This document shows, piece by piece, positions 32,065 to 34,704 of a stretch of DNA of 39,991 nt (position 1 is the stretch's first letter; each line of letters starts with the position of its first letter). The notes beneath the pieces were generated by a model. The model was given only the letters and a program-made list of their open reading frames with translations, did no database searches and was not told the origin of the DNA. The DNA is from Actinomycetes bacterium (GTDB taxonomy: Bacteria; Actinomycetota; Thermoleophilia; BMS3ABIN01): the NCBI GenBank assembly GCA_024276735.1, contig JAJRWQ010000016.1, positions 1 through 39,991 on the forward strand, written 5' to 3'. A program made the translations under genes and the position numbers.

Positions 32065-32140
32065 GCGGATGTAGCGTAGTTGGTAACGCGTCGGCTTCCC
32101 AAGCCGAAGATCGCGGGTTCGAGTCCCGTCATCCGCTCCA
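32065..32140 (+). tRNA. tRNA-Gly (anticodon CCC)
   Basis: A 76-nt tRNA. The acceptor stem GCGGATG pairs perfectly with CATCCGC, followed by T and an encoded CCA. The anticodon stem TCGGC/GCCGA encloses TTCCCAA, giving CCC, which reads GGG. The T arm has the GGTTCGAGTCC pattern. It is the only RNA gene seen, and a lower-GC, decayed element follows it, as is common at tRNA integration sites. Confidence 0.95.
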
Positions 32141-32186: not shown

Positions 32187-32210
32187 GAGAAAAAAGGCCT
32201 TTTCTCTTTC
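32187..32210. terminator. A/T-flanked hairpin after tRNA-Gly
   Basis: GAGAAAAAAGGCCTTTTCTC around the palindrome AAAAGGCCTTTT, followed by TTTC. It is a plausible factor-independent terminator for the tRNA transcript and could work in both directions. Confidence 0.5.
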
Positions 32211-32254
32211 ACAACATAATTCACAACATGCAAGGCCAAAATCAGGGGGTTTTC

Positions 32255-32434
32255 ATGAGGATTCCGAAGGAAGTAAAGACTGCTATCGAGGGCTGGCCGG
32301 GGCGCTGGAGAGCGCTGAGGATCACCGAGGCGGGGTTACAGGTCAGGTATTACCGGAAGGGGGAGGCCGTTGCCGTTCACACCAGAAGCGGACCCGGCGA
32401 TTACTACTACTTGTGGGACGTTACCAGGCAGTAG
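32255..32434 (+). CDS. N-terminal part of a degenerate SWIM-like protein
   Basis: A 59-residue ORF starting MRIPKEVKTAIEGWPGRWRA; the ATG at 32255 has AGGGGG five bases upstream, whereas the in-frame ATG at 32228 has none. It ends at TAG in DVTRQ-stop. The frame continues without interruption into a segment reading TWKRAGELWKHALAV. Aligned with the SWIM zinc-finger pattern (CxC...CKHxLAV), the TAG falls at the first cysteine, Leu at the second and Trp at the third; only the final His remains. I read this as the front of a SWIM-like protein whose zinc ligands are lost. Base composition is lower in GC than the flanks. Confidence 0.5.
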   Translation: MRIPKEVKTAIEGWPGRWRALRITEAGLQVRYYRKGEAVAVHTRSGPGDYYYLWDVTRQ

Positions 32435-32665
32435 CGGCTGAAGACGTGGAAGAGGGCGGGAGAGTTATGGAAGCACGCCCTGGCGGTCATCGATCGCGGG
32501 CCGGACCGGTTCGGGCTGGTGCGCTTAAGCGACTAGCATAGCAGCCGGGGCGGACAGAAGGCCTCGAGGCGCTACCAGGGTCGCAGGAGAGAGGCAGGCA
32601 TCGGCGTCAATGAATCCTGGAAGAAAAACGAAGAGGCGTTAGGCTGGTTCAACCTCTTAACGTGT

Positions 32666-33067
32666 ATGCTTGAATGGTTGAAAGAGGGGCGGGCAGGCCC
32701 GCTATGGGATCTGTACGGAAACCCCCGATGCACTAGGGAAGGGGAAATATGGCTCTACCCAAGGGGCAGCGGAGAAGACTTCCCCTTTTTTCCTTTTTTC
32801 GGTATACGTTCGATGACGAAGAGCTATCTGTCTTCTGAAGCTATGGCCTCCGAATTCGGGCATCATGTAATCCCCACAAACGAACGTGAGTTATTTCAAA
32901 ACGCCTGGCGGACAGTAACAGGAGAGGTGCAAAAGCTCCTGAATAAAATCTCGATAGCCTCGGTGACAATCGGCGAATATGACACTCGCGGCATGACGTG
33001 GCTTTTCCACGCCAAAGGGGCTTTTGAGGCCGCCTTCCTTCGTATTTCCAGGAGTTTACAGGAGTAG
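32666..33067 (+). CDS. Hypothetical protein in tRNA-Gly-linked element
   Basis: A 133-residue ORF beginning MLEWLKEGRAGPLWDLYGN and ending ISRSLQE. No family is recognised. It is soluble, with aromatic-rich stretches (EGEIWLYPRGS, PFFPFFGIRS) and a probable helical region (FQNAWRTVTGEVQKLLNKIS). No Shine-Dalgarno sequence precedes the ATG and the coding-like frame extends upstream to a TAG at 32534, so the true start may lie further left or be lost. GC content and codon use are markedly lower than in the flanking genes, consistent with transfer. It is followed after 5 bp by a small zinc-finger ORF. Confidence 0.55.
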   Translation: MLEWLKEGRAGPLWDLYGNPRCTREGEIWLYPRGSGEDFPFFPFFGIRSMTKSYLSSEAMASEFGHHVIPTNERELFQNAWRTVTGEVQKLLNKISIASVTIGEYDTRGMTWLFHAKGAFEAAFLRISRSLQE

Positions 33068-33072
33068 ATTTC

Positions 33073-33201
33073 ATGACTTGTGCCAAAGAGGGCTGCGAAT
33101 CGGTTTTCCCACGTGGGCGCAGAGGGAAAAAGTATTGCAGCCCTCGATGTAGAATGGCGGCAGAAAAAGCACGGCAGCGAAAACGCAAATCAGGTTCTTA
33201 A
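33073..33201 (+). CDS. Small zinc-finger-like protein (42 aa)
   Basis: A 42-codon ORF, ATG at 33073 with AGGAG eight bases upstream (inside the end of the previous ORF) and TAA at 33199. It contains two Cys pairs, CAKEGC and YCSPRC, separated by a basic linker, and a basic Arg/Lys-rich tail ending RQRKRKSGS. The C-x4-C ... C-x3-C layout suggests a treble-clef or CGNR-like zinc finger that binds nucleic acid. Small proteins of this type are common in mobile elements and phages. It is too short for firm assignment, but the clean ribosome site supports translation. Confidence 0.6.
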   Translation: MTCAKEGCESVFPRGRRGKKYCSPRCRMAAEKARQRKRKSGS

Positions 33202-33220: not shown

Positions 33221-33465
33221 CTATTCAGCGTAAAAGTACGGCTCCAGTTCTTCTTCCGGTACGTAGCGGGAGACCTGCCTGATAATGGCCTTGAGCGTGC
33301 CCCGGTCCAGCTCCTTGTGCAGGGGGATGACCAGCACCTGGCGTGAACCGCCCGAATGACGGACAAGCTTCACGTGACTGCCCTTCTGTGAGGCATGCGT
33401 AAAGCCGAAGCGGCCAAGGATGGATATTCCTGCTTGCCCGACAGCCGCTTTAACTTACCCGGCAT
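33221..33465 (-). pseudogene. hicA: hicA mRNA interferase, frameshifted
   Basis: ATG at 33465 starts MPGKLKRLSGKQ, the normal HicA N-terminus, then the frame goes wrong and stops early. After a -1 shift near 33426-33430 the remaining frame reads ISILGRFGFTHASQKGSHVK, LVRHSGGSRQVLVIPLHKEL and RGTLKAIIRQVSRYVPEEEL to TAG at 33221. That includes the catalytic-type histidine in GSHVK. One missing base in the codon after GKQ explains it. The gene overlaps the end of hicB by 11 bp. Intact HicA is a dsRBD-fold RNase that cuts mRNA. Either the toxin is inactivated, or this is a base-call error. Confidence 0.85.
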
Positions 33466-33685
33466 GGGCAAGCGGTTCCACTTCGAAGGTAACGATAAGC
33501 GAGGGGTTGGGCTCCAGGTCCAGCGCCGCCAGGTCTTCCCCCTCCAGGTAAAGGGCTACCGCTTCCTGGAGATTGGTTATCGTTTCGTCCAGCGTGCCGC
33601 CCTGGGTAACAACGGACAACCCGGCGCATTCCGCCACGTATCCCGATTCCCCCGGATAAACAAATGCTTTGATGGTTCGCTGCAT
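33455..33685 (-). CDS. hicB: HicB-type antitoxin
   Basis: A 76-residue protein of the short HicB class. The RNase-H-like fold is seen in FVYPGESGYVAECAGLSVVT, the turn TQGGTLDETITNLQEAVALY and the acidic end of that helix. It has no C-terminal HTH or ribbon-helix-helix domain, so DNA binding would need another factor or the complex. It is transcribed ahead of hicA with overlapping ends, the order common for the short class. A perfect GGTTAA-TC-TTAACC repeat lies one base before its ATG. With hicA broken it may be an orphan antitoxin. Confidence 0.9.
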   Translation of the reverse strand: MQRTIKAFVYPGESGYVAECAGLSVVTQGGTLDETITNLQEAVALYLEGEDLAALDLEPNPSLIVTFEVEPLAHAG

Positions 33686-33686
33686 G

Positions 33687-33700
33687 GGTTAATCTTAACC
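33687..33700. promoter_or_regulatory. Inverted repeat before hicB
   Basis: GGTTAA-TC-TTAACC, one base upstream of the hicB ATG and covering the stop codon of the recombinase remnant. The position suits an operator for toxin-antitoxin autoregulation or a site that masks the ribosome-binding region. Confidence 0.4.
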
Positions 33701-33823
33701 TTTCTGCTCCAGCTTTACCACGTTCTCAGCCTCCACTTCCGCCACCAGCGCCCCCGCCAGCTCCGCTGCTGCCCTCAGGGCGTCATCGCGGATATGGGCG
33801 TAGCGGTTCGTCACCGGATGGCC
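33695..33823 (-). pseudogene. Tyrosine recombinase (integrase) C-terminal remnant
   Basis: On minus, about 42 codons ending at TAA 33695 read GHPVTNRYAHIRDDALRAAA, then ELAGALVAEVEAENVVKLEQ. The RYAHIRDDALRAAA block is the hallmark end of phage-type tyrosine recombinases, the Tyr (codon 33802-33800) being the nucleophile. Upstream of GHPV the frame loses similarity (Pro/Arg-rich), so the catalytic Arg/His boxes are gone. The remnant lies just upstream of hicB and ~1.7 kb from tRNA-Gly, marking the inserted origin of this interval. It is too short for routine ORF calling. Confidence 0.8.
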
Positions 33824-33877
33824 GCGCCTCCAGGCAGGAAGGCGGGGGCCGGCGTTGAACGCAGAAGGCGGCGCCGC

Positions 33878-33921: not shown

Positions 33922-34704
33922 ATGTCGTCTCTTCACGACCAGGAAACCAGGGTCCTGCGCCCGCAGGCGCAGGCGTCCCCGGCCGGCGGCGGCCGGCGGG
34001 CGGACTTCAAGTGGCTGGCAGGCGTGCTGCTGGTGCCGGCGCTGGTTTTCCTGCTTGCTTCCCTGGCGTTCTACCGGCAGACGCAGCCGGCGCCGGCAAG
34101 AGCGGTGATCACCGAGATGTCGCTGCCGTTTCTTTCCGATCCCCGGGCGGCGGCAACGCTGGAGCGGCTGGCGCCCGACATGCTGGCGTTCCTGGAGAGC
34201 CCCGCCTTCGCCACCGCCGTTTACGAAGATCCTTCCAGGTTACAGCGCCTGGCCGGGGACCTGCCGGACCTGCCGGGGGACGAAGGGCGGGAGCTGGACG
34301 CGGCCCTCACCGTGGCGACCAGGGGGGTGGCGCTCACCAGCAGCGGTGCTCACGAGAGGGCGGCCAGGGCCGTCCTCTTCTCGGCGGCGGCGGTGCTGCT
34401 GCTGACGGCGGCGATGGCGGCGGCGGGCCGCCGGCTGGGCCGGCTGGCCGGGCCCGGAACCTGCTTGCTGGTAGCCTCCCTGTTCTTGTTGCTGCCGGCG
34501 CTGTTCCTGCGTTCCCGGCTGCTGGACGGCCTGTTGTCCAGCGTCGGCGAGGAAGCGGGCGGCATGGTGGCGGCGGTGGCGCGACCGCTGCTGGAGGCCT
34601 TCATCGAGGCAGCAGTATCGGTCTCCGGGCTGGCCCTGCTGCTGGCATTGCTGCTGCTGGCGGGCGCGGCCCTGGGGGCACTGGTCGCCAGGCTGCGCGC
34701 CTGA
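33922..34704 (+). CDS. Hypothetical membrane protein, four predicted spans
   Basis: A 260-residue protein. Hydrophobic segments are at ~31-50 (WLAGVLLVPALVFLLASLAF), ~150-165 (VLFSAAAVLLLTAAMAA), ~178-195 (LLVASLFLLLPALFL) and ~233-255. Between the first and second is an extracytoplasmic loop of ~95 residues rich in Leu, Ala and Asp. The C-terminal ~30 residues are Leu/Ala-rich. No family is recognised. The alternative plus-strand frame from 33855 is Gly/Arg-biased and rejected as a shadow. It ends 15 bp from the convergent WecG/TagA-type gene. Confidence 0.7.
   Translation: MSSLHDQETRVLRPQAQASPAGGGRRADFKWLAGVLLVPALVFLLASLAFYRQTQPAPARAVITEMSLPFLSDPRAAATLERLAPDMLAFLESPAFATAVYEDPSRLQRLAGDLPDLPGDEGRELDAALTVATRGVALTSSGAHERAARAVLFSAAAVLLLTAAMAAAGRRLGRLAGPGTCLLVASLFLLLPALFLRSRLLDGLLSSVGEEAGGMVAAVARPLLEAFIEAAVSVSGLALLLALLLLAGAALGALVARLRA

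Follow-up and report, generated by a model that had tools for sequence, protein, structure and literature searches.

PICI-type phage satellites that code for capsid or terminase proteins are among the closest known parallels to the locus considered here, and the parallel is with intact relatives of this locus from the same bacterial family: these are small, integrated at tRNA genes and equipped with an integrase, an HTH_17 excisionase-like gene, a primase and one or two head or packaging genes, a likeness that is known from the genes alone. The locus itself lies in the window, by which we mean the whole stretch of 39,991 nucleotides that was analysed (contig JAJRWQ010000016.1 of assembly GCA_024276735.1, Actinomycetes bacterium), and the copy found there, unlike the satellites, keeps an integrase stub only and has zero packaging or capsid genes.

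With the tRNA-integrated elements of its own family the window copy shares the C-terminus of the integrase and its orientation towards the tRNA, the type of integration site (tRNA-Gly(CCC) is common to it and the element of genome G007), the 12-nt repeat pairs and, in the interval between integrase and tRNA, a HicB/UPF0150-like gene (genome G018). It differs from them in being without most of the integrase, the attR and the genes for replication and packaging, and in having a tRNA-proximal gene that comes from another family.

Our interest centres on positions 32255-33067 of the forward strand, an interrupted frame that a preliminary description of this DNA had read either as a decayed SWIM-like gene or as a case of amber readthrough. 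We consider it very probable that the stretch is a decayed gene within the relic of a tyrosine-recombinase element integrated at tRNA-Gly(CCC). On this reading a candidate for amber recoding, or for a special decay of a SWIM site, is removed, and the oddity of the frame would reflect ordinary pseudogene decay in an element remnant.

The element remnant beside tRNA-Gly(CCC)

The ATG at 32255 that opens the frame follows tRNA-Gly(CCC) at a distance of 114 bp, and a GC-poor island extends from 32141 to about 33.75 kb (GC 0.50-0.61, vs. about 0.65-0.75 on both sides). Two internal stops divide the frame into three pieces, of which the first two are treated here as gene A and the third as gene B. 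The features of the region are the following.

32065..32140, forward strand: tRNA-Gly(CCC), the integration site, left complete (ARAGORN; Rfam RF00005, 75.6 bits)
32205..32231, forward strand: repeat pair, TTCACAACAT AA TTCACAACAT, with 12-nt spacing, beside the tRNA; putative arm-type integrase sites
32255..32536, forward strand: pseudogene A, tRNA-proximal element gene of 93 codons, interrupted in frame by TAG at 32432-32434 and ended by TAG at 32534
32537..33067, forward strand: gene B (piece 3), a probable ORF of its own next to gene A; homologue search empty
33073..33201, forward strand: gene C, a 42-aa zinc-finger ORF resembling CGNR/treble-clef fingers, with AGGAG before its ATG
33221..33465, reverse strand: hicA-like toxin gene (HicA_toxin, E 1.2e-6, profile positions 26-56 only), with a frameshift near codon 12
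33455..33685, reverse strand: hicB-like antitoxin gene of 76 codons, with weak HicB-like/UPF0150 matches; gene order hicB-hicA
33695..33826, reverse strand: tyrosine recombinase tail (element integrase), the last 43 codons, with an RYAH motif and containing RYAHIRDDALRAAAELAG

The copies of TTCACAACAT, at 32208-32229, match at 10 of 12 positions at a spacing of 12, and a second repeat pair was not found on the right side of the window element. Gene C matched Pfam PF11706 with an E value of 0.0005, under the curated cut-off, and its start overlaps the TGA (33074-33076) that would follow piece 3. In their order and in the HicA profile match the next two genes are like HicAB toxin-antitoxin modules, from which they differ in that hicA is frameshifted, its beginning and its remainder lying in different frames. 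The hicBA pair spans 33221-33685, and the one frameshift that splits hicA might be an assembly error.

The 43 codons of the integrase tail gave zero matches in Pfam and in tblastn searches against phages and plasmids. Within the same bacterial family, however, integrases that are intact or nearly so have C-termini with 50-73% identity to them, and two of these integrases match Pfam PF00589 (Phage_integrase) with E values of 2e-28 and 1.9e-26; the homology is read from these 43 codons, over which seven sequences agree. Beyond the tail, a membrane-protein gene at 33922 marks the return of GC-rich chromosomal sequence. An attR, which would repeat the 3' end of the tRNA in direct orientation on the far side, is absent in the window, and for this reason we speak of a relic and not of a complete element.

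The history that we propose begins with the integration of a tyrosine-recombinase element, for which the 3' end of tRNA-Gly(CCC) would have served as the site; what remains of it would reach from 32141 to about 33830, a length of about 1.7 kb. Its presumed mobility would have depended on an integrase acting on the tRNA end and on the repeat pairs at both ends of the element, and its integration would have left a short duplication of the tRNA 3' part at the far side. If the repeats are the arm sites of the integrase, the right pair may have been lost together with attR, probably in a deletion that also took most of the integrase. With the integrase mostly deleted and attR gone, this copy could no longer leave. 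After the deletion the remaining genes would have drifted, with neutral decay as the likely source of the TAG: gene A, the first after the tRNA, would have gained its in-frame TAG at 32432 and hicA its frameshift, and piece 3 would probably be a second gene whose start was lost. The decay proposed in the preliminary description is supported by the state of the neighbours (frameshifted hicA, an integrase of 43 codons, the lost attR) and by the finding that the homologue of the gene is itself a fragment, located at another tRNA.

The interrupted frame and its homologues

Inspection of the frame agreed with the description that it is open from the ATG at 32255 to 33067 except for TAG at 32432, at 32534 and at the end (33065); there are no other stops. 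Dinucleotide shuffles of the stretch gave a mean of 10.8 stops per frame and three or fewer stops in 0.2% of cases (n=3000), from which we take it that the frame codes for protein or once did; the remaining five frames of the same stretch contain 8 to 15 stops each. TAG accounts for 38% of the stops in the shuffles, and TAG at three of three stops has a p of ~0.055 (0.14 for the two internal TAGs), so that its exclusive use is weak evidence to which we attach little weight.

Codon-position GC is coding-like in piece 1 (GC3 0.76, GC2 0.51) and in piece 2 (GC3 0.88, GC2 0.48), the latter having, as had been noticed, a coding appearance and an absence of start codons at its beginning. Past the second TAG the first 20 codons are not coding-like (GC2 0.70), and piece 3, with a composition different from that of pieces 1 and 2, is weakly so (GC3 0.56). 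Because codon-position GC differs between the pieces, the single gene of 270 codons implied by the preliminary description is not established, and one gene from its first two parts with another from the third fits the data better. By composition, pieces 1 and 2 probably form a single gene (93 codons, one internal TAG), with piece 3 as a probable neighbour distinct from it (gene B), which has no start codon before the in-frame ATG at 32666 and a ribosome-site-like AGGAGAGAGG at about 32584.

Among the genomes and public collections searched, a homologue of gene A was found in genome G004 (bacterium BMS3Abin01) only, with 51% identity across 51 codons and a conserved start. The differences are distributed over the three codon positions as 21/14/33, the mark of an old protein-coding gene. 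The homologue is placed about 137 bp past tRNA-Leu(GAG), and the location of both copies directly behind a tRNA indicates that the gene belongs to such elements. In the G004 copy the similarity ends after about codon 51 and the gene itself is truncated after about 55 codons, and both known copies of gene A, to judge from their sequences, are broken. Directly behind the G004 copy (L004, 1662-1912) are frames that by eye resemble the C-terminus of an IS3-type transposase.

A translated search for uninterrupted relatives, proposed earlier as a check, came back with none, the sole match being the G004 fragment; the translation with TAG read as X, and also piece 3 alone, had zero homologues among phages, plasmids, viral contigs and genome contigs. 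An alignment search with the N-terminal part recovered G004 as the single relative, and the weak HMM matches that accompanied it were rejected as chance. Chance was likewise taken to explain two further candidate relatives, L002, which lies in the rpsL region, and L007, which runs antisense to ordinary genes; both were rejected. Comparison of gene A by hhalign with the tRNA-proximal genes of intact elements did not detect relatedness (probability 0.2%). As an intact homologue of gene A is missing and the gene matches no known family, its original length and the joining of pieces 1 and 2 are read from composition, and we can commit only to the view that gene A, before its decay, would have been cargo carried by the element next to the tRNA, in the slot where intact relatives hold a small variable gene.

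The likeness to SWIM zinc-finger proteins (PF04434) fared less well. A KHALAV stretch in the window resembles the end of the SWIM motif, and it is correct that a stop, a Leu and a Trp occupy the three Cys positions of CxCx(n)CxH, the His alone being present; unlike SWIM proteins, however, the frame is without a profile match and without all three cysteines. The Pfam SWIM match is absent even at E 10, and a profile built from the SWIM regions of the class did no better on the segment than on its shuffles (588 of 1405 scored shuffles were equal or better, a comparison of low power for a segment that has no cysteines). In its own genome there was no SWIM match at E<=1, none of the SWIM proteins collected from the class is like the N-terminal part of gene A, and nothing useful was found in the literature on SWIM together with satellites. 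With the SWIM assignment unsupported, a decay that has a metal site as its focus cannot be claimed.

Rival readings of the stops

Pieces 1 and 3 might be normal small element genes that end at their own TAG codons (68 or 59 aa for piece 1, and 133 aa for piece 3 from the ATG at 32666), with piece 2 open by chance and the TAGs in place without any decay. Piece 1 does have its own start, which is conserved in G004, the G004 fragment loses its similarity after about codon 51 and soon ends, and the ATG at 32666 is available to piece 3. We nevertheless regard this reading as unlikely, given that piece 2 lies in the same frame with a strongly coding-like GC3 of 0.88, that the IS3-type transposase-like frames (by eye) behind the G004 copy make truncation the explanation of its early end, and that the adjoining hicA and integrase are broken. 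Errors of sequencing or assembly come to mind for a draft of 120 contigs that is 89.6% complete, and a single-base error at a TAG or in hicA, where the difference could be one indel, is possible. That the gene is intact in the cell, all its TAGs being errors of the draft contig, is nonetheless quite improbable: the integrase truncation and the loss of attR are not point errors, two separate nearby errors both giving TAG would be unlikely, and the other long ORFs of the contig are open.

Readthrough of TAG by a suppressor tRNA, pyrrolysine or a recoding system carried by the element would yield a protein of 270 aa or longer. In favour of it, TAG is the only stop used in the frame (p ~0.055), and translation continued past 33065 would end at the TGA 33074-33076, with which the start codon of gene C overlaps. 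Against this, a CUA anticodon was present in none of the 33 tRNAs found (the genome is 89.6% complete, and PylT can evade the tRNA model), the best PylS score in the same genome was 15.1 bits vs. a cut-off of 178, and both the element and hicA are damaged, the one truncated and the other frameshifted. TAG terminates 6 of the 25 long ORFs of the window (mechanically chosen) and 5 of the 24 genes of intact related elements, and is therefore an ordinary stop here. The amber option of the preliminary description is accordingly unlikely, and in the general form just given we hold it to be very improbable. Its most specific version, in which a suppressor tRNA outside the assembly would make 32255-33076 one protein with three readthrough residues and an end at the TGA overlapping the start of gene C, seems to us more improbable still. 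Decay within an element relic is the reading that we retain.

Intact relatives and their insertion sites

Elements of 3-9 kb, integrated at tRNA genes and sharing the same integrase and paired repeats by the tRNA, are intact in genomes G007, G018, G009, G005 and G002 of the same bacterial family. In G007 the element is located at tRNA-Gly(CCC). About 6.2 kb downstream an attR repeats 45 bp of the 3' end of the tRNA exactly, and the integrase gene, which stands at the end away from the tRNA, has the orientation seen in the window, towards the tRNA. The G018 element, at tRNA-Leu(GAG), has a 45-bp copy about 3 kb away; its distance from the tRNA to the integrase stop (1.6 kb) is near the value for the window, and a HicB/UPF0150-like ORF lies within that interval, as in the window. 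The G009 element is found at tRNA-Val with a 40-bp copy, and that of G005 (L113, 1160-10727) between an epimerase gene and tRNA-Gly(CCC), where it encodes an HK97-type capsid protein and a terminase small subunit. The arrangement in G005 is a different one, since its direct repeat (42 nt) duplicates the 5' part of the tRNA, where G007, G018 and G009 have copies of the 3' end. A terminase large subunit is encoded by the G002 element. With capsid, terminase, primase and HTH_17 excisionase-like genes among them, the intact relatives would be classed as satellite-like by gene content, and the family shows clear attL/attR and element-specific paired repeats. Close relatives of the integrase were not found among viral contigs by the search method used.

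The epimerase gene and tRNA-Gly(CCC) adjoin in most of the family members searched. At the empty-like sites of G013 and G009 a homologue of the membrane gene at 33922 in the window closely follows the tRNA, and by eye the end sequence of the element after the tRNA is also present in G003, G006, G010 and G012. As a side result, tRNA-Gly(CCC) thus appears to be a recurrent insertion site for small satellite-like elements in the poorly studied family of bacterium BMS3Abin01, on which the literature yielded nothing useful.

A tRNA-proximal protein (SDHEHQGPQNTRWSEI) is conserved in three intact elements (L118 1650-2117, L112 6086-6418 and L114 11607-11179); it had no convincing Pfam match, nor were close relatives of it found among viral contigs. 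Pairs of 12-nt-spaced repeats stand beside the tRNA in L112, L114, L118, L113, L086 and the window (32205-32231), with matches of 10-11 of 12 in G004, G018, G007 and G009. Such element-specific repeats would suit integrases with diverged arm-site specificity. The repeat motif varies between elements (CACAACA, CCCAGCA, CCCCACA, TTACCACA) and is shared within one element, being found again at the far end in G007, G009 and G018 (loci L112, L118 and L114).
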